64,000 bases of DNA from an uncultured Synergistales bacterium (GTDB lineage Bacteria > Synergistota > Synergistia > Synergistales > Aminobacteriaceae): contig CAJOMU010000007.1 in assembly GCA_905235735.1 (NCBI GenBank), forward strand, positions 1-64,000, written 5' to 3'. Positions 24,029 to 54,405 of the stretch are shown piece after piece. How positions within the stretch are numbered: the stretch's first letter is position 1; the number at the start of each line of letters is the position of its first letter. The notes beneath the pieces are model-generated. The model did no database searches, was not told where the DNA came from, and worked only from the letters and a program-made list of their open reading frames with translations. A program made the position numbers and the translations under genes.

Positions 24029-26746
24029 ATGTACACTCTAAGGAAACATACAAAGACTTTAATCCTCGCATTCTTATTTTGTGTTTTGTATTCATTCTCA
24101 GCGTTTGCAGATGTCGTTACAGTACGTGAATCTGCACCGTTAAACCCAGAATTCTTGCAATGGCAGGAAGATCAGCAGTCAGTATCAGTGAATAGCCATG
24201 TGTACAACGTCAATTCTTCTGCATCAGGCAAGACTTATGCAAAAGGTTACATACCTTCACCTGTGAATCGTTCTCATCTTTCAGCCAGCACTCCGAAAGT
24301 TAATGCAGGCATTTATAATGTGAAGGCTTCTGCGTTACCTTCAGCATATGATCTCAGAACTTATAGCAAAGTTACTCCCGTCAGAGATCAGAATCCTTAC
24401 GGGACATGCTGGGCGTTCGCTTCAATCGGAGCAATTGAGAGCAATTATTTGTCTCAAGGTTTGTCATCTTCCTCTAACATAGACTTATCTGAACTTCATT
24501 TATCATGGTTCGCCTACAAAGACCCTGAAAGAGGAAACAGTTTCACTATCAGTCAGTCAGGTTACTACTATACCAATAGCACTGTCCTTAATTACGGAGG
24601 CAACGTTGATATTAGTATCGCTTATCTCTCACGAATGGCAGGGCCTGTGAAAGAATCGTCAATGCCATATTTATCAGCTCAATTCGTCCGAAGCGATGCG
24701 AAACCTTCCGATTATTTTCCTCTCGCACTCAGGCTTAAAGATGCATACACTCTCGGTGATATAACGACAGCAAGCGAAAGAGTAACTCGAATTCCAGTAC
24801 TCAAGGAATTTATCATGAATAACGGAGCTGCTGTGATAAATTATTATGCAGGAAATGGCGCATATACATCATCAGGTACGAGTGTGCCAGCATACTTCGA
24901 TAATTCAGGAAGTTATCCAGATCATGCAGTTCTTGCTGTTGGGTGGGACGATAACTTTTCACGCAATAATTTCACTGGACGCACTAAACCTTCATCTAAT
25001 GGAGCATGGCTTGTGAAAAATTCATGGGGATCGAACTGGGGAGATTCGGGTTACTTCTGGATATCGTATGAGCAGAATATTTATTCAATTACATCATTCT
25101 GTGTTGGTGAACCCAATGATGACATCAAACACTACGGACATGATGCACTTGGCCATATAGGAAGCATGAGCGATAACTGGGCAGCAAATGTATTCAAGGC
25201 TGAACGTGATAATGAAGCGGTCGGTGAAGCAGGCTTTTACACACTGGATAACAATGTGAACTACGAGATATATATTTATGACTTAGGAACAGCTAAACCT
25301 TCATATCCTGTTCCCTCAAACCTGAACTCGTACAAAGCAAAAATTTCCGGCACAGAGACATATGCAGGTTATCATACGAAGAGCTTCAATAAACTTATAC
25401 CGATAAGCAAGGATCATTATTTCTCTGTAGTCGTGAACATGAACACTTCGTACAGATACCCCACAGCAATAGAAGAAGCATATATGAATTACGCAAGTCC
25501 TGTCATAAATTCTGGTGAAAGCTGGTTTGCAAGCTACAGCAATGGAATTCCTCCACAAAGCAGATGGACAGACGGAACAGTGATTAGGTACACCGGAAGA
25601 TACTCACCTGCGAACGCATGCATAAAGGCATTTACATTTCTGACTGATACGAATACACCATCAGTTGAGCCTGCCTCAGCAGACACTGAACCAGAACCAA
25701 CACCGACACCTACACCAGAACCGACACCTGAGCCTAAGCCAACACCGACACCTACACCAACGCCTACACCTGAACCAGAACCAACGCCTGAACCTTTACC
25801 GTCATCATATAAGGCTCCGAAGATAAAAACATCCTCGCTTCCTCGTGCAGTAACAGGGACAGAATATACGGCACAGCTCAAAGCGTCTGGCAGTGAACCA
25901 ATGACATGGACAGCTGAAGGACTTCCTGAAGGACTAACGATAAATTCATCAACGGGTGCAATATCAGGAATACCTGTAAATGATTTCAGCGGAAAATTCA
26001 ACGCGTCTGTCTCAAACTTAGCGGGCACGTACACAAAGGCAGTACGTATTACGGTCAAATCAAAGAAGCCGTCAATCACGACGAAAACTCTTCCTCAAGG
26101 GACAGAGAATCAGAGCTACAATGTACAGCTCACAGCAACAGGAAGCCCAAGAATAACATGGTCGTATACCGGCACTTTACCCAAAGGTCTGACGCTTAAT
26201 TCTTCAGGATTGATTGAAGGAATACCAAAGGAATATGGCAAGTTCACAATCTATGCTATAGCCTCAAACAGTGCTGGCAAAGCTAAACGAAAATTAGTGC
26301 TTACGATTGAGGAAAATTACGATTTGTTTAGCGATGATGATTGGTTTAATGACGACTGGTTTAACGATGATTGGTGGTGGTGGTGGTTCTACGGAAAGCC
26401 AGCCTCAGTTTCAAGCGTTCCTGAAAACGTAAACAGCAATGGAGGGAACACTTCAATACGCATAACAGAACTTCATGTTGTGAGTGATGATGTATTGAAG
26501 CAAGGCACAGATCGTGATGAAGATATTGTTGAAGTGAGAGCAGGTATGCCTGTTAGATTCATTGCTGGAGATTCGGCGTATGACATGAAGGTTTACGTTG
26601 ATGATGAACTTATTGAAGACATAACCGTATCTGAAAATGGAGAGTTCACAGTTCCGGCAGATATTGTGCATAACGGATTCAAAGTTCAGGTTAAAGCCAA
26701 AGGATTTGAATCGCATGAGCTTTATGTCAACGCAATTGAACAGTAA
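24029..26746 (+). CDS. secreted papain-like (C1) cysteine protease with Pro-Thr linker and Ig-like repeats
   Basis: A 905-residue exported protease. After a signal peptide (about 1-27, ending SAFA) and a propeptide-like section, the C1 domain has C127 (in PYGTCWAFASIG), H299 (in DHAVLAVGWDD) and N331 (in LVKNSWGSNWG). A following beta-rich domain may be lectin-like. A Pro/Thr/Glu linker lies near 553-592. Two He_PIG Ig-like repeats follow (GLPEGLTINSSTGAISGIP; TLPKGLTLNSSGLIEGIP). A short acidic, Trp-rich block (about 769-788) joins a final beta domain. It probably works at the cell surface or in the medium on host or dietary protein. AAGGAGG sits before the ATG. Confidence 0.9.
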   Translation: MYTLRKHTKTLILAFLFCVLYSFSAFADVVTVRESAPLNPEFLQWQEDQQSVSVNSHVYNVNSSASGKTYAKGYIPSPVNRSHLSASTPKVNAGIYNVKASALPSAYDLRTYSKVTPVRDQNPYGTCWAFASIGAIESNYLSQGLSSSSNIDLSELHLSWFAYKDPERGNSFTISQSGYYYTNSTVLNYGGNVDISIAYLSRMAGPVKESSMPYLSAQFVRSDAKPSDYFPLALRLKDAYTLGDITTASERVTRIPVLKEFIMNNGAAVINYYAGNGAYTSSGTSVPAYFDNSGSYPDHAVLAVGWDDNFSRNNFTGRTKPSSNGAWLVKNSWGSNWGDSGYFWISYEQNIYSITSFCVGEPNDDIKHYGHDALGHIGSMSDNWAANVFKAERDNEAVGEAGFYTLDNNVNYEIYIYDLGTAKPSYPVPSNLNSYKAKISGTETYAGYHTKSFNKLIPISKDHYFSVVVNMNTSYRYPTAIEEAYMNYASPVINSGESWFASYSNGIPPQSRWTDGTVIRYTGRYSPANACIKAFTFLTDTNTPSVEPASADTEPEPTPTPTPEPTPEPKPTPTPTPTPTPEPEPTPEPLPSSYKAPKIKTSSLPRAVTGTEYTAQLKASGSEPMTWTAEGLPEGLTINSSTGAISGIPVNDFSGKFNASVSNLAGTYTKAVRITVKSKKPSITTKTLPQGTENQSYNVQLTATGSPRITWSYTGTLPKGLTLNSSGLIEGIPKEYGKFTIYAIASNSAGKAKRKLVLTIEENYDLFSDDDWFNDDWFNDDWWWWWFYGKPASVSSVPENVNSNGGNTSIRITELHVVSDDVLKQGTDRDEDIVEVRAGMPVRFIAGDSAYDMKVYVDDELIEDITVSENGEFTVPADIVHNGFKVQVKAKGFESHELYVNAIEQ

Positions 26747-48675: not shown

Positions 48676-49563
48676 TTAGGCATAACCCAGACGTTTTAAT
48701 GCGGTCTGATTTTTTCTCCAATCCGGAAGTACTTTAACCCATAAATCGAGAAATACTTTATGACCTGTAGCCTTTTCAAGTTCAGTTCTCGATAACATGC
48801 CAATCTTTTTTATCATGTTTCCGTCTGAACCGATTAGAATTTTTTTATGTCCTTCAGTCTCAGCGATTAATGATGCGCGAATATAGAGAGTTTTGCGTTC
48901 AGGATATTCATCGGGACTTTTGTACTCGTCAATCACAACGGCAATCCTATGCGGAATTTCATCATGTAACAGCATGAGTAACTTTTCGCGAATGATTTCA
49001 CTTGCCACGAATCTTTCTGTCGTGTCCATGAGTATATCAGGGTCATATATAGGTGTGCCGTCAGGAAGAACTCTCTTTAATGCAGTAAGGAGAGTATCGA
49101 GGCCACGCTTCAGCCTTGAGGAAACGGAAATTTTTGCGGTGAACTTGAAGATATTATCATAGAGAGCAAATGCTAAATCTGGATTTGAACGGTCAGATTT
49201 ACTTGCAACGAGAATGACAGGAACATTAGGAAGCATAACGGCAATTTCATAATCATCCTGAGCGAGTTTTCGTGTTCCAGCATCAACGAGCCATAAGATT
49301 ACATCTGAATCTTCAACAGCACCAGCGATTGCATTATTGAGGAAAATTCCGAGCTTATCACGAGAATTATTAATCCGATAAAGTCCGGGAGTATCAGTGA
49401 AAACAATCTGCGAATCATTATCGTTATATATGCACCTGATTGAATTTCTCGTAGTCTGAGGTTTAGGTGAGACGATAACGGCACGGGTTCTGAGGAGAGC
49501 ATTAATCAGAGAGGACTTGCCAACGTTGGGCCTTCCGATGAGAGAAACAGTACCGCACTTCAT
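48676..49563 (-). CDS. era: ribosome-maturation GTPase Era
   Basis: A 295-residue GTPase that binds the 3' end of 16S rRNA during 30S assembly. GRPNVGKSSL near 8-17, TTRNSIRCI and DTPG are present. The fourth GTPase motif reads SKSD instead of NKxD. The C-terminal KH domain shows ILIGSDGNMIKKIG. The gene starts on the stop of cdd (overlapping TAATG), giving a cdd-era unit, an arrangement also seen in other bacteria. Confidence 0.95.
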   Translation of the reverse strand: MKCGTVSLIGRPNVGKSSLINALLRTRAVIVSPKPQTTRNSIRCIYNDNDSQIVFTDTPGLYRINNSRDKLGIFLNNAIAGAVEDSDVILWLVDAGTRKLAQDDYEIAVMLPNVPVILVASKSDRSNPDLAFALYDNIFKFTAKISVSSRLKRGLDTLLTALKRVLPDGTPIYDPDILMDTTERFVASEIIREKLLMLLHDEIPHRIAVVIDEYKSPDEYPERKTLYIRASLIAETEGHKKILIGSDGNMIKKIGMLSRTELEKATGHKVFLDLWVKVLPDWRKNQTALKRLGYA

Positions 49564-50006
49564 TATTCTTCGGGGTCGAGTGTGAATGAATGAGGCAATA
49601 ACTTTTTCAGCTCGTACACTTTAGCACCGTCTTTAGAGGCCATGACGATGAGCATATCCTTGTTGAATTCCATCAATGCCTGACGACACGCTCCACACGG
49701 AGGACATGCAATCGTGAAGTAATCATCTTTGTCCTCATATGAACCTGTTACTGCGATTGCCAGAGGATTACGTTTACCCTGTGAGACCATGATGACGACA
49801 CCTGCACGTTCAGCACAAATAGTGATGCCGTAAGATGCATTCTCGACGTTGCAAGACAGAATCACTTCGTCATTGGGCATAAGCATGGCCGCACCGACGT
49901 GAAAATGTGAATAAGGAACATAAGCTCTTCTAGCAGCTTCTCTAGCATGAAGTAATAGAGCTTCGGGAGTAATTTTTTCTGAAGGCCAGTTATCTCTCGC
50001 TGACAT
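49563..50006 (-). CDS. cdd: cytidine deaminase
   Basis: A 147-residue zinc enzyme that deaminates cytidine and deoxycytidine to the uracil forms in pyrimidine salvage. The zinc and catalytic residues sit in CNVENASYGITICAERAG (Cys and Glu of CAE) and PPCGACRQAL (two Cys). The length suits the small homotetrameric class. The ribosome site is weak; a hairpin-forming CTCATATCC / GGTATGAG lies just ahead of the start. Confidence 0.94.
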   Translation of the reverse strand: MSARDNWPSEKITPEALLLHAREAARRAYVPYSHFHVGAAMLMPNDEVILSCNVENASYGITICAERAGVVIMVSQGKRNPLAIAVTGSYEDKDDYFTIACPPCGACRQALMEFNKDMLIVMASKDGAKVYELKKLLPHSFTLDPEE

Positions 50007-50072
50007 TTAATTTTCTCATACCTGCCTTTAATGGATATGAGAGATATTTTAACACTAAGAATGCGATTCCTG

Positions 50073-51311
50073 TTATGAGTAAGCCTTCAATAAACCTTCA
50101 GCGACTTTTTCGAGTGAATGTTCCGTTATCATAATTTCGCGGAGTTTTTCACCTTTTGCTTTCACTGATGCTTCATCACGTTTGAAGTCCTCATAGAATT
50201 TCATGATTGCATTCCTGAGACGTGATACATGTTCGGCTTCATCGTCTGTATCATCGTAGCAATACACAAGATTTGGGTCGTTAAGGTCTCGCGTTGTGCC
50301 TGTCCAAGTGCCTATAACTGTTCGTCCGAATGAGAATGCGAGAAATGCAGAACCAGAATTAAGTGCTGATACTGTATTGTACGGAATAAGCAAGACATCA
50401 GAGAGCTTGAGCAGTGAAGGGATTTCTTCTTCTTCAATGAATCTGAAATCTGCCGTAACGTTGTTTCCTTCTATCATTGAGCGCAATTGATTATGATACT
50501 CTTCATTTCCTCGTCCGCATATAAGGAAGTGTATATCTGTTATTCCCTGAAGTTGATTTGCAGCTTGAATCAATATCTCAATGTTCTTATAGGGACTTAT
50601 TGACCCCATAAACAGCAAAACAATTTCATTTTCCTTCTTGACATAGGTTGTGTAAGGCTTTGTTCCACGATAAGCACAATTAAAGTCAGGATGAGGTATA
50701 TAGACTATCTTGCCCAAATCAATATCAGGTACAAGGCTTTTTATGAATGATATACTTTCTTGACCATATACCAATATTTTGTCTGAGTATTTCAACATGA
50801 ATAACATTATCTTCTCATTCTCTGTACTTCTGCTGCGTTTGTCATGATTAACTTTATCATGAACAGCAAAGACGATTTTACCGCCCTTCAATTTTATAGC
50901 ATGCATAATAAGAATTCTGCTCATGTATTTTATTTTTCTCATTATGAAGCATCGTCTTCCTATGAACACATTCCAATTGAAATGAAAAATTTTACATTTC
51001 AAAAATGCTAGGAAATGATTCTTACCTGTATAAAGATTGAACCCAGCGAGTTTAATAGCTTCCTGAATTAGGCCTATAGAAGCATTAGCATCATACTCCG
51101 GAGTAAAACTTACCCATATGTTTCCTGTTTCCTGTTTCCTGTTTCCTGTTTCCTGTTTCCTGTTTCCTGTTTCCTGTTTCCTGTTTCCTGTTTCCTGTTT
51201 CCTGTTTCCTGTTTCCTTCCTGTTTCCTGTTTCCTGTTTCCTGTTTCCTGTTTCCTGTTTCCTGTTTCCTGTTTCCTGTTTCCTGTTTCCTGTTTCTATT
51301 ATATTATTCAT
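50073..51311 (-). CDS. glycosyltransferase (GT4-like) with N-terminal heptanucleotide repeat
   Basis: A 412-residue glycosyltransferase whose first ~65 residues are a repeated ETGNRKQ peptide encoded by a 7-bp tandem array. The true enzyme begins at IWVSFTPEYDANASIGLI. The C-terminal half is a GT4-type domain: VLLFMGSISPYKNIEILIQAA, FLICGRGNEEY, FIEEEEIPSLLKLSDVLLIPY and NSGSAFLAFSFGRTVI. It probably transfers a sugar to a surface glycan. The ATG at 51311 has GAAGG 10 bases upstream and lies outside the repeat, so slippage would switch the gene on and off. In this sequence it is in frame. Confidence 0.85.
   Translation of the reverse strand: MNNIIETGNRKQETGNRKQETGNRKQETGNRKETGNRKQETGNRKQETGNRKQETGNRKQETGNIWVSFTPEYDANASIGLIQEAIKLAGFNLYTGKNHFLAFLKCKIFHFNWNVFIGRRCFIMRKIKYMSRILIMHAIKLKGGKIVFAVHDKVNHDKRSRSTENEKIMLFMLKYSDKILVYGQESISFIKSLVPDIDLGKIVYIPHPDFNCAYRGTKPYTTYVKKENEIVLLFMGSISPYKNIEILIQAANQLQGITDIHFLICGRGNEEYHNQLRSMIEGNNVTADFRFIEEEEIPSLLKLSDVLLIPYNTVSALNSGSAFLAFSFGRTVIGTWTGTTRDLNDPNLVYCYDDTDDEAEHVSRLRNAIMKFYEDFKRDEASVKAKGEKLREIMITEHSLEKVAEGLLKAYS
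51120..51296. repeat. heptanucleotide tandem repeat (GTTTCCT / AGGAAAC)
   Basis: Fourteen exact 7-bp units (51120-51217), a 4-base partial TCCT (51218-51221), then ten exact units (51222-51291) and a partial end. Because 7 is not a multiple of 3, all frames encode the same heptapeptide and contain no stop, while any change of one or two units shifts the frame of the gene beyond. Confidence 0.97.
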
Positions 51312-51377
51312 ACTTTGTCAACCTTCATTACTCTGATTTTGACTCCTTCACAAATATCTTATGGATTTTTGTCCGTT

Positions 51378-51386
51378 ATTATATCA
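51378..51386 (-). promoter_or_regulatory. extended -10 promoter of the glycosyltransferase
   Basis: The minus strand reads TGATATAAT, about 65 bases before the start codon. The start of transcription would thus lie outside the repeat. Confidence 0.5.
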
Positions 51387-51400: not shown

Positions 51401-51434
51401 TTATTATATTATCCCAAAAGGAGAATATGACATA

Positions 51435-51977
51435 ATGAAAAAATTTCTCGCACTCATTATTTCAGTTGCCTTTATACTTTCATGCACCACAGCAGAATCC
51501 GCAAAACGTAAATCAAGACGCAGTACCCCATCATCACCAGCACCAGCCGCAGGAATATCTTCTCTTCCTGGTACATGGACAGCTTACGGTAACGGCGCAG
51601 GAGCATACGCACGCAATCCAGGCGAAAACATCGAGATATATACGCACGATGTATTATTCACTATTGAAAGCATAAAATTCTATGAGGCTTCCGGCGAAGG
51701 TACTGCTGATATAATCTTCAAGTGCGAAATTTACGACAACAGAAATCAGCTCAGACATAAACGAAGCTGGGAATATGCACTCCCTTATGATGTTAAACGT
51801 GATGGCAATAACACATGGATTTTCAGCAGTGAGTTCCTTGATGGTGAAGACAAAATTACATTTACATTAATATCAGACAGAAAAGCACGAATCAGACTTC
51901 AAGGTTCAGACTGGAATGAAGAATATCCTGAAGAAGTATCTGCTTTCGATGTGATGTGTGAGGCAGTAAAAAAATAA
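51435..51977 (+). CDS. predicted lipoprotein of unknown function
   Basis: A 180-residue exported protein. The short signal ends in a lipobox (FILSC, Cys17). A basic Ser/Pro-rich linker (about 22-45) leads to a beta-rich domain (SLPGTWTAYGNG...IEIYTHDVLFTIESIKFY), similar in style to lipocalin-like or DUF4488-like folds, though I cannot assign it. I start at the ATG 51435 behind AGGAGA; the longer frame is without a ribosome site. It is divergent from the phase-variable glycosyltransferase. Confidence 0.75.
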   Translation: MKKFLALIISVAFILSCTTAESAKRKSRRSTPSSPAPAAGISSLPGTWTAYGNGAGAYARNPGENIEIYTHDVLFTIESIKFYEASGEGTADIIFKCEIYDNRNQLRHKRSWEYALPYDVKRDGNNTWIFSSEFLDGEDKITFTLISDRKARIRLQGSDWNEEYPEEVSAFDVMCEAVKK

Positions 51978-52009: not shown

Positions 52010-53524
52010 TTAATACTTCAATGCTGGTTTGTTTTGCAGCACTGCACTTCCATTCTTTGCAAAAGCTATGTTCATTGGTGAAATATATTTTTCATAAAAT
52101 TGTCCGGCTTCACTCTCATTCATCTTTAAATCAAGTTTCATCAATGCCCTGTTTATTATCGAGAATACATTCATCTTGCTCAGGTAACCCTCTTCAATCT
52201 CTCGTATCACCTCCTGCAATACAATTTCTGTCTTGAGTTCAAGATTACCAGACATGAAATATTCATCAATGTAGAAGAACGGAACATCATTATTCTGTAA
52301 TCGCTGATAGTATGCCTGTGAGCAGTTATCATATTCAAGCATGACGAGGAATTTCACTTCAGGTGTGAGTTCGATTAACGGCCAGAAGTCGCAATCACTC
52401 GAAATTATGATAGCCGAATCTATTGGTTTACCTTCTGCTTTTGCCGATACAATCTCACGGTAAAACTTAATCGTTAAGGCAACATCTACAGCAGATTTCT
52501 CATCCTTCACTCTGTCAGTAAGATAATATTCAAGCGGAAGATTCTCATTGCGTCTGAGTGCCCTCCATTGTGATGAAGTATGTTCGTCATCAACGAGAAG
52601 TATCTTTGAGATTTTGCTTATCAGTCCTCGTGCATCAAGTTCCTTAATGATCCCGATAACTTTGCAGGGGTCAGCATTCTCACAGTCAATCGCAACAAGA
52701 ATACGTTCAGACCTCGCAAAGAAATCTTCAGGGTCATCAATTGCATCATCACCTGCCTCTGTTACTTTGCTCATGTCGTAGAATCTATCACGGTTGCGTT
52801 CATACAATATGGGAATGAATTTCGCATCATCCCTCAGAATATTTCCGTCTGCATCTTCAGGATACCAGTTGATATATGACTGATACGGATACAAATCACG
52901 GAACTCACTGTATGACTTGGCCGCTTCCTTGTTGCCTTCAACAGTGTTGCCTTTTGGAATGAAGAATAAGTTGCGAATGTATGCCCACTTAATCCATTCA
53001 GGCATGAATTTCTGACAGTTAGGTACATGCGGTAAAAGGTAATTATGAACATCAACAATGTAATCTTCAAGTCTTCTTCGTGCCCTAACAAAGGGAATGC
53101 CATCACGTTCAAGTGTCCGTAAAATTTCGGGCGGAACTAAATCGGGAATAGCATCTATGTTCTTGATGTCTGAATTCATTTCTGTGAATATTGCCCGAAA
53201 GTTCCTCTGTAATTTTGTTCTGAGCATACAGAGGTTACGTACTATTCTTGCTTCTCTGTCCTGATTCATCTCATCGTAGACACTGCGATAAAACTGCGGG
53301 TTCATGTTTTCAGTCTGGCCAAGTCCGAAGTGTTTATCCTCAACTCCTATGAGATATGCAACCCTTGATACAATATCGCGTTTTGAACGAGGCGAATCAA
53401 TCTGTGCTTTAGATGTAGGCGGCAAATTCTCAGAGAAATTCTGAAGCATTGCACGTTTATCATCATCTAACATACTTCCTATACTTGTTTCACTCATCTT
53501 TAATTCATCATCTCCATATATCAT
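52010..53524 (-). CDS. NYN-domain (PIN-like) putative ribonuclease
   Basis: A 504-residue protein. Residues about 275-430 form a NYN/LabA-type PIN-like domain: LVAIDCENADP with D280, an Asp in DEKSAVDVAL, and IISSDCDFWPL with D377 and D379, which would bind the catalytic metal. The N-terminal 250 residues and the C-terminal tail are unassigned and may recognise RNA. The ATG at 53524 overlaps the yitT-like stop (ATGA), so translation is probably coupled. An ATG at 53497 with GGAG ahead is an alternative. Confidence 0.75.
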   Translation of the reverse strand: MIYGDDELKMSETSIGSMLDDDKRAMLQNFSENLPPTSKAQIDSPRSKRDIVSRVAYLIGVEDKHFGLGQTENMNPQFYRSVYDEMNQDREARIVRNLCMLRTKLQRNFRAIFTEMNSDIKNIDAIPDLVPPEILRTLERDGIPFVRARRRLEDYIVDVHNYLLPHVPNCQKFMPEWIKWAYIRNLFFIPKGNTVEGNKEAAKSYSEFRDLYPYQSYINWYPEDADGNILRDDAKFIPILYERNRDRFYDMSKVTEAGDDAIDDPEDFFARSERILVAIDCENADPCKVIGIIKELDARGLISKISKILLVDDEHTSSQWRALRRNENLPLEYYLTDRVKDEKSAVDVALTIKFYREIVSAKAEGKPIDSAIIISSDCDFWPLIELTPEVKFLVMLEYDNCSQAYYQRLQNNDVPFFYIDEYFMSGNLELKTEIVLQEVIREIEEGYLSKMNVFSIINRALMKLDLKMNESEAGQFYEKYISPMNIAFAKNGSAVLQNKPALKY

Positions 53525-54405
53525 AATGAACGCCAGCTCTTGAATCCATTTCCGAGAACTTCTGACGCATCGCATATCGACACAAATGCTTTCTCGTCAT
53601 GTTCTTTAAGAAATTGTTTCAGCAATACGACCTGTCTGGTATTCAACAATGTAATCAGAATTGGTCTTGTCTGACCTGTATAGCCTCCTTTACCCTCAAT
53701 GCGTGTAACTCCCTTATGCAATGAGTTAATGAACTTGCTGACTTCATCGGGAATGTTCGTGATTATGATTGCCTGTTTGCGTTTATCAAAGCTCCTTGTA
53801 ACATTGTCTACTGTGATTGCGTTCACATATAATCCAACTGCACCGTAAACTACAGCTTCAAGTCCAATGATGCCGATTGAGAAAGCGAAAATGAAGAGGT
53901 TGATGAACATTGAGAACTGTCCGACCTCAAGACCGTAACGCCTGCGCAATGCAACTGCTGCAATGTCCGTTCCACCTCCAGAACCTCCGACGTTGAGCAT
54001 CAATCCTCCTGCCGTGCCTTTCAGCACTCCGGTTATGACAGTGGCCATGAACTTATCATTGGGTAACGGAAGAGGGAAGTGTTCAAAGACAGAGAGCATA
54101 GTTGAGAAAGAGAAAACAGCAGTAATTGTGAGTGCGAGAAACCGAACGTTGAGATATTTCCATGCCCATAGAACAAGAAGAATGTTGCCGGTGAGAATTA
54201 CCCAGTTAGGAGAGATTCCGAACATGTAGTTTGTGAGTACAGCGATGCCTGCAACGCCCAAATCAGGAAAATGATAATGCAGAGTGAAATATCTGACAGC
54301 GAAAGCCTGAATTGAACTTGCGAATATAATTACTGCGACTGCTTTCCAGTCTTCTTTGAAGATTGTGATTGCGTGTGTGAAAAATTTTCTGATAAATTGT
54401 TTCAT
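53521..54405 (-). CDS. YitT-family membrane protein (DUF2179)
   Basis: A 294-residue membrane protein with about five or six helices in the first 200 residues (AVIIFASSIQAFAVRYF; GVAGIAVLTNYMFG; GGSGGGTDIAAVALRRRYG). A C-terminal cytoplasmic DUF2179 domain follows (FDKRKQAIIITNIPDEVSKFI; GYTGQTRPILITLLNTRQ). The family's transport or regulatory role is unknown. I start at the ATG 54405; the frame is open to 54450. AAGGAGG lies 14 bases upstream. Confidence 0.88.
   Translation of the reverse strand: MKQFIRKFFTHAITIFKEDWKAVAVIIFASSIQAFAVRYFTLHYHFPDLGVAGIAVLTNYMFGISPNWVILTGNILLVLWAWKYLNVRFLALTITAVFSFSTMLSVFEHFPLPLPNDKFMATVITGVLKGTAGGLMLNVGGSGGGTDIAAVALRRRYGLEVGQFSMFINLFIFAFSIGIIGLEAVVYGAVGLYVNAITVDNVTRSFDKRKQAIIITNIPDEVSKFINSLHKGVTRIEGKGGYTGQTRPILITLLNTRQVVLLKQFLKEHDEKAFVSICDASEVLGNGFKSWRSL

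Follow-up and report, generated by a model that had tools for sequence, protein, structure and literature searches.

A translated heptanucleotide array as the probable phase switch of a glycosyltransferase gene in an uncultured Synergistales bacterium, and the array family of its genus

The glycosyltransferase gene located in the window, i.e., the whole stretch of 64,000 nucleotides analysed here, is very probably a phase-variable contingency locus whose reading frame is set by slippage on a (GGAAACA)n array. Slippage on this array, which occupies the 5' coding region, would add or remove 7-bp units. Because this length is not divisible by 3, such changes would decide whether the glycosyltransferase can be read from the upstream ATG. 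Of the three phases, one would give a 412-aa enzyme carrying an (ETGNRKQ)n N-terminal extension, and the other two peptides of 64-75 aa. The locus belongs to a genus-wide set in which a standard leader precedes outputs that are either fused to the array or, presumably, coupled to it via a leader ORF. The phase switch is supported by the recurrence of the same design before many glycan genes, by stop-free units that are never multiples of three, by a proportion of about one third of arrays in frame, and by whole-unit differences between paralogs.

The array and the frame of the enzyme

The whole ORF (50073..51311, minus strand) encodes 412 aa and, as assembled, reads through the array in the correct frame (ON). 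The start codon (51309..51311, minus strand) begins the five codons ATG AAT AAT ATA ATA (M N N I I) located 5' of the array (51119..51297, minus strand), which consists of 24 GGAAACA units and one 4-nt partial unit GGAA, 172 nt in all, preceded by a 5' partial unit GAAACA. With a period of 7 and 25.9 copies according to TRF (51119-51296), it is the strongest tandem repeat of the window. Twenty-four identical 7-mers cannot be due to chance. Their exact number may be imperfect, since the array exceeds the length of a short read and an N gap interrupts a different array of the assembly. The GGAA interruption equals one unit minus three bases and therefore leaves the frame undisturbed, and the encoded peptide, (ETGNRKQ)n, is identical in every frame. 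The succession proposed in the original prediction, an ATG plus four codons, 24 heptamers split by a 4-base partial unit and then a glycosyltransferase, is thus confirmed by the sequence, by TRF and by the exact count.

The glycosyltransferase part (IWVSFTPEYD..., 50073..51119, minus strand) matches the Pfam family Glycos_transf_1 (PF00534) with an E-value of 2.5e-12 and 47.1 bits, against a Pfam cut-off of 26.4, which places it among the GT-B glycosyltransferases. The GC content of this part is 36.6%, versus 42.5% for the window. A search by sequence at E 0.01 gave no relative in the PDB, no close homologue occurs among 40 relatives, and the single-sequence structure prediction is poor (pLDDT 44).

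Computed changes in unit number reproduce the expected on/off behaviour: the unchanged array gives 412 aa, the gain of one or two units 75 and 71 aa, and the loss of one or two units 64 and 68 aa, as anticipated for an enzyme turned off by such gains or losses. The array is free of stops in all three frames, and the off-frame stops, expected at a TAA within about 15 bases and a TGA within about 35 bases, occur at 7-9 and 26-28 bases past the array, respectively. The frame test also agrees exactly with the claim that the array sets the frame, that all frames encode the same peptide without a stop, and that the present copy is in frame. The repeat lies in the coding region, 3' of the start codon, with a unit that is not a multiple of 3, as befits a frame-setting array, and one phase yields the full protein while the other two stop early, as in genes of the neuO type.

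A translation start downstream of the repeat had been named as the finding that would speak against the switch, but no in-frame ATG, GTG or TTG occurs within about 40 codons past the array, so that an upstream start is required for a complete N-terminal domain. Moreover, the enzyme sequence starts at the last base of the array, and a complete enzyme consequently needs a start located 5' of it. The ATG in CATATGGGT, considered as a possible restart 3' of the array, is out of frame and its frame stops after 8 codons. The frame arithmetic, the sole suitable start and the enzyme domain following the array can all be read from the DNA. Slippage would be the cause of changes in unit number, switching would take place in cells, and the target would presumably be a surface glycan.

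Leader elements and genomic setting

The leader of the gene combines several short elements, all on the minus strand, whose assignment as ribosome site or promoter is made from sequence only. The Shine-Dalgarno-like GAAGG (51322..51326), recognized by inspection 10 nt 5' of the start codon, occupies the position of AGGAG in the cassettes of the genus described below. A -35-like TTGACA box (51316..51321), corresponding to the consensus of these cassettes, is followed after 12 nt by a TATAAT box (51298..51303) at the edge of the array. As in the cassettes, the start codon (ATG at 51311) lies between the two boxes and opens into the array, and the -10 box runs straight into the array, TATAAT being directly followed by A-GAAACAGG. 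The spacing is TTGACA-N12-TATAAT, versus N17-18 in the genus, outside the 16-19 nt accepted by the cassette pattern; the pattern search accordingly misses the locus, and the 12-nt spacing leads to its classification as a variant leader rather than a standard cassette. At this spacing the two boxes probably do not form a working promoter pair, which would imply that the TTGACA/TATAAT pair is not needed for the frame switch.

Besides the N12 spacing and the GAAGG ribosome site, the locus departs from the cassettes by an upstream promoter inherited from the cytidine deaminase gene (cdd). The TG-extended -10 element TGATATAAT (51378..51386, minus strand) is conserved in the sister species (G012), where it stands upstream of cdd, which identifies it as an older promoter; the inserted gene probably uses it. 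A local sigma-70 scan around the gene gave no more hits than shuffled sequences.

The gene is flanked on its 3' side by cdd (49563..50006, minus strand) and by an Era-like GTPase gene (MMR_HSR1 and KH_2 domains; 48676..49563, minus strand), and on the other side by a divergent lipoprotein-like gene of 183 aa without Pfam match (51426..51977, plus strand), which adjoins cdd in congeners. In the sister species, the closest relative, whose cdd is 97% identical, cdd and the lipoprotein gene are adjacent and the site is empty. The TGATATAATAAC element located between these two genes is common to the sister species and the window. Among 24 congeners sampled, 19 cdd loci were found, and the stretches read at these loci contain no such enzyme. 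The absence of the enzyme from the cdd loci of congeners, together with an empty site bearing the same TGATATAATAAC element, indicates that about 1.34 kb comprising leader, array and enzyme (approximately 50033..51374, minus strand; absent at the same place in the sister species) was inserted between the cdd promoter and cdd, and recently so.

A few observations on the surroundings can be added. The empty site of the sister species, from cdd to the lipoprotein gene (G012:C138, L331), contains GAAACAG once, a word of the window's unit, possibly by coincidence. Upstream of the locus, a 521-aa ORF (52010-53575, minus strand) with a sub-threshold NYN nuclease-like domain is partly conserved beside the locus of the sister species. 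At 25682-25785 of the window, imperfect 18/24/42-bp tandem repeats rich in ACCGACACC-type words probably encode a Pro/Thr-rich protein segment.

The array family of the genus

Heptamer arrays in a coding region had been regarded as unusual, a view that does not hold for this genus, where they are common. In the window's genome, for which genome-wide numbers derive from 504 kb sampled and from pattern searches, runs of at least 3 units in the 504 kb comprise 13 of period 7, seven of period 4 (none above 3.2 units), one of period 5 and none of period 8; period 7 exceeds every other period. A search with the protein led to another array, made of CGAAACA, and on the surrounding contig a GT8 gene carries a third, made of AACGACC, at its 5' end. 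Arrays of AACGACC occur in four species of the genus and in none of 62 other genera of the phylum.

A scan of this genome for periodicity only, the one collection free of any requirement for promoter boxes, found 11 arrays, ten of which have a -35/-10 pair scoring at least 9 of 12 that ends at the array edge (background 3.2%), the pair being perfect (12/12) in five of the 11 (background 5e-5). The sole exception is the window's own array, where both boxes are present 12 nt apart. The remaining cassettes were mostly collected via a pattern that already requires the boxes, AGGA-TTGACA-N16-19-TANAAT, which gives 13 sites in the window's genome versus one for the reversed control; in most of the 13, an array abuts the -10 box and glycan genes follow. 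The pattern matches in 35 of the 43 species of the genus. Outside the genus, a stricter pattern occurs in only three of 145 genomes, and the two examples read lack an array. Ordinary TTGACA/TATAAT promoters of the same genome, e.g., two preceding tRNA-like genes, are devoid of arrays. A general link between promoters and arrays was discarded, since the GGAAACA arrays of other phyla score at background for -35/-10 boxes; the link is specific to the genus.

The standard leader consists, in this order, of a TG-extended -10, AGGAG as Shine-Dalgarno sequence, TTGACA, a start codon, TATAAT and the array. Among 79 distinct cassettes with arrays, 76 possess a leader start codon whose frame is open into the array, and 53 possess an ATG, versus 17.5 (maximum 28) with shuffled spacers. 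The TG-extended -10 occurs upstream in 55 of the 79 (background 3.5%), in nearly all cases 24-39 nt before TTGACA, and so placed it can, to judge from its position, supply an mRNA carrying both the ribosome site and the start codon. The units at the -10 edge measure 5 or 7 bases, with a single case of 8; no length is divisible by 3, and the 38 different units contain no stop triplet, for which the chance at their composition is about 3e-4 to 6e-3. The genus includes Synergistaceae bacterium RGIG3217, from goat reticulum, represented by G009 (JAFSKE010000133.1), in which the GGAAACA unit itself precedes an acyltransferase-like ORF in the OFF phase. Two arrays do not clearly fit the cassette, that of G015 (TGAAACA, 3.9 units) and one of G017. 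Both the absence of the window's gene from the sister species and the existence of this family of equivalent arrays are apparent from the sequences compared.

Depending on the cassette, two kinds of output can be distinguished. In the fused class, comprising 41 of the 79 cassettes, the array is continued by a long ORF, which is in frame in 15 cases, out of frame in 25 and devoid of a start in one; 15 of 41 is close to one third, which fits a freely drifting unit number. In the remaining cassettes the array lies within a short leader ORF, and 29 of these have an identifiable next gene. For this coupled class, the criterion adopted was a stop located between -8 and +11 nt relative to the start of the following gene, a limit of 40 nt being too loose. 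A frame ending within this interval, often as ATGA, exists in 27 of the 29, versus a mean of 10.7 and a maximum of 17 in 500 shuffles, and exactly one frame reaches the next start in 27 of the 29, the others stopping early. This arrangement suggests that the short-leader arrays act as phase-variable translational coupling. The products encoded downstream of the cassettes belong to the GT2, GT4 and GT8 glycosyltransferases, sugar transferases, acyltransferase 3, LicD, MBOAT and TupA-like ATP-grasp families, with a few others, e.g., radical SAM proteins and some without Pfam match.

Several arrays deserve separate mention. At G000:C15:1684-1819 (L127, L028), a KASIII-GNAT ORF ends in a CGAAACA array of about 19 units, and an FkbH-like gene follows immediately. 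Two frames of the array, out of three, terminate at the FkbH start codon or close to it (TAAATG); the array looks like a coupled-class switch overlapping the upstream gene. At G000:C4:25893-28548 (L172), three consecutive GT4-like genes possess their own leaders, with the heptamers GCAAACA, TCGAACA and CGACCAA. Pentanucleotide arrays of CCACA, CCAGT, CACAT, GTCAA and GACCA (L211, L238, L284, L290, L305, L202, L203) occupy the same leader position as the heptamers.

Evidence for changes in unit number is comparative, with one genome per species and counts taken from assemblies. GT8 paralogs of G054 whose leaders and flanks are identical or almost so carry 3.7 or 5.7 units, a near-identical pair of G052 carries 1.2 and 5.4 units, and two further pairs sharing a leader likewise differ. 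In addition, several cassettes lie within a few tens of bases of a contig end, and one other array of the window's genome contains an NNNN gap, as expected where arrays break short-read assemblies.

Known systems and alternative explanations

The closest parallel is neuO, the polysialic acid O-acetyltransferase gene of the Escherichia coli K1 prophage CUS-3, which contains an AAGACTC array in its 5' coding region (PMC3046976). In both genes, which encode glycan-modifying enzymes, a heptanucleotide array lies just 3' of the start codon and has no stop in any frame, and both yield the enzyme in one phase of three, with a basic heptapeptide tail (PMC3046976). The mechanism predicted for the window's gene is that of neuO. 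They differ in that the present gene encodes a glycosyltransferase, with another unit and in another phylum, and is a chromosomal insert before cdd rather than, as far as seen, part of a prophage. Furthermore, neuO is described as a single gene, whereas the window's gene is a member of a family that extends through the genus and has a leader in common. The lipopolysaccharide loci of Haemophilus influenzae resemble this family by the presence of many repeat-controlled surface-glycan genes per genome (PMC2651432), but rely on tetranucleotides, in contrast to the 5- and 7-base units, the shared promoter-like leader and the coupled output found here. Heptamer repeats are also abundant in single lineages such as Xanthomonas, Nostoc and Beggiatoaceae (PMC4692102, PMC4679880), where they are intergenic and built from one or a few related units, whereas the arrays of the genus comprise many units in translated leaders.

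Elsewhere in bacteria, GGAAACA arrays mostly lack a long ORF after them, so that the array alone proves nothing. A phage origin was rejected, as four consecutive GGAAACA units occur in only two viral contigs, neither with a long ORF after the array. In Frankia (L074, L081, L085, L107, L120) and Tamaricihabitans (L113), a conserved ORF (PHGAGYNK..array..VYGFAHDQL) carries GGAAACA arrays at one conserved position; the frame is maintained in certain species and lost in others, and the ORF may represent a phase-variable actinobacterial gene. In a Treponema sp. MAG (L086, 386-431), a GGAAACA array lies 7 nt after a TTGACA-N17-TAAAAT pair and precedes a 595-codon open frame with a signal-peptide-like start.

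The boxes at the array edge recall hmw1A and hmw2A of Haemophilus influenzae, in which an ATCTTTC array overlaps the -10 of promoter P2 and acts by its length, more repeats giving lower expression of hmw1A (PMC8262952). As in most cassettes of the genus, the heptamers start at a -10 box, but the hmw arrays lie outside the coding region, whereas the present one is part of the translated sequence and determines its frame, and the window's boxes are mis-spaced. If transcription started from TTGACA/TATAAT, the array would form the beginning of the 5' UTR and its length would tune expression regardless of frame. This explanation, favoured by the hmw1A precedent and by the pairs found at the edge of 10 of the 11 period-found arrays, five of them perfect, is nevertheless unlikely, since it leaves unexplained why the units are never multiples of 3 and lack stops, why start codons are enriched between the boxes, and why one frame reaches the start of the next gene; in the window, with boxes 12 nt apart, a transcript started at the array would lack the start codon of the enzyme. 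A graded effect of the N-terminal extension, in which the length of the (ETGNRKQ)n tail would alter enzyme activity and on/off switching would be secondary, draws on the heptads of NeuO, which raise catalytic efficiency linearly (PMC3046976), and on the two basic residues in seven that the window's peptide has in common with NeuO. It is very unlikely, because two of the three phases still leave the cell without enzyme, the 38 units differ greatly between loci so that no particular tail is conserved, and the array of the coupled class lies outside the enzyme altogether.

That the array is a neutral, slippage-prone repeat, expanded by chance within an ORF and without any switching role, would agree with the GGAAACA arrays of many phyla that usually lack a long ORF after them and with the few intergenic arrays of the genus without a fused ORF, e.g., in G015. 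It is extremely improbable in view of the recurrence of the genus arrays at one exact place of a standard leader preceding glycan genes, and of units whose lengths shift the frame and which lack stops. The frame switch by slippage thus remains the preferred explanation, and it may be extended, tentatively and as something possible rather than probable, to a dedicated switch module of the genus, in which a leader with TTGACA/TATAAT abutting a 5- or 7-base array would serve dozens of glycan genes through two outputs and the boxes themselves would serve the switch. Local melting at the boxes might, for instance, keep the array unstable, or a second transcript might be produced that is untranslatable or independent of the leader; an RNA begun at the boxes would not include the start codon of the leader.

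Most of what is known about repeat-driven phase variation comes from a small number of pathogens. In the full-text literature searched, from which most subscription journals are missing, no phase variation is described for Synergistaceae or Synergistetes, in agreement with the original prediction that it was undescribed in this lineage, nor is a leader reused across dozens of glycan genes, a coupled output or any such system of Synergistaceae; the standard leader and the coupled output appear to be new to the literature. If the proposed switch is true, it would be one of the principal ways in which a rumen-associated genus of Synergistaceae varies its surface, and with several glycan genes per genome switching independently, the number of possible surface combinations would be very large. 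The arrangement of the coupled class would be a clean natural solution for switching a gene while its protein stays unaltered, and the strict link between promoter boxes and arrays offers a testable case for how such arrays arise. The arrays also explain some of the contig breaks in the genomes of the genus.
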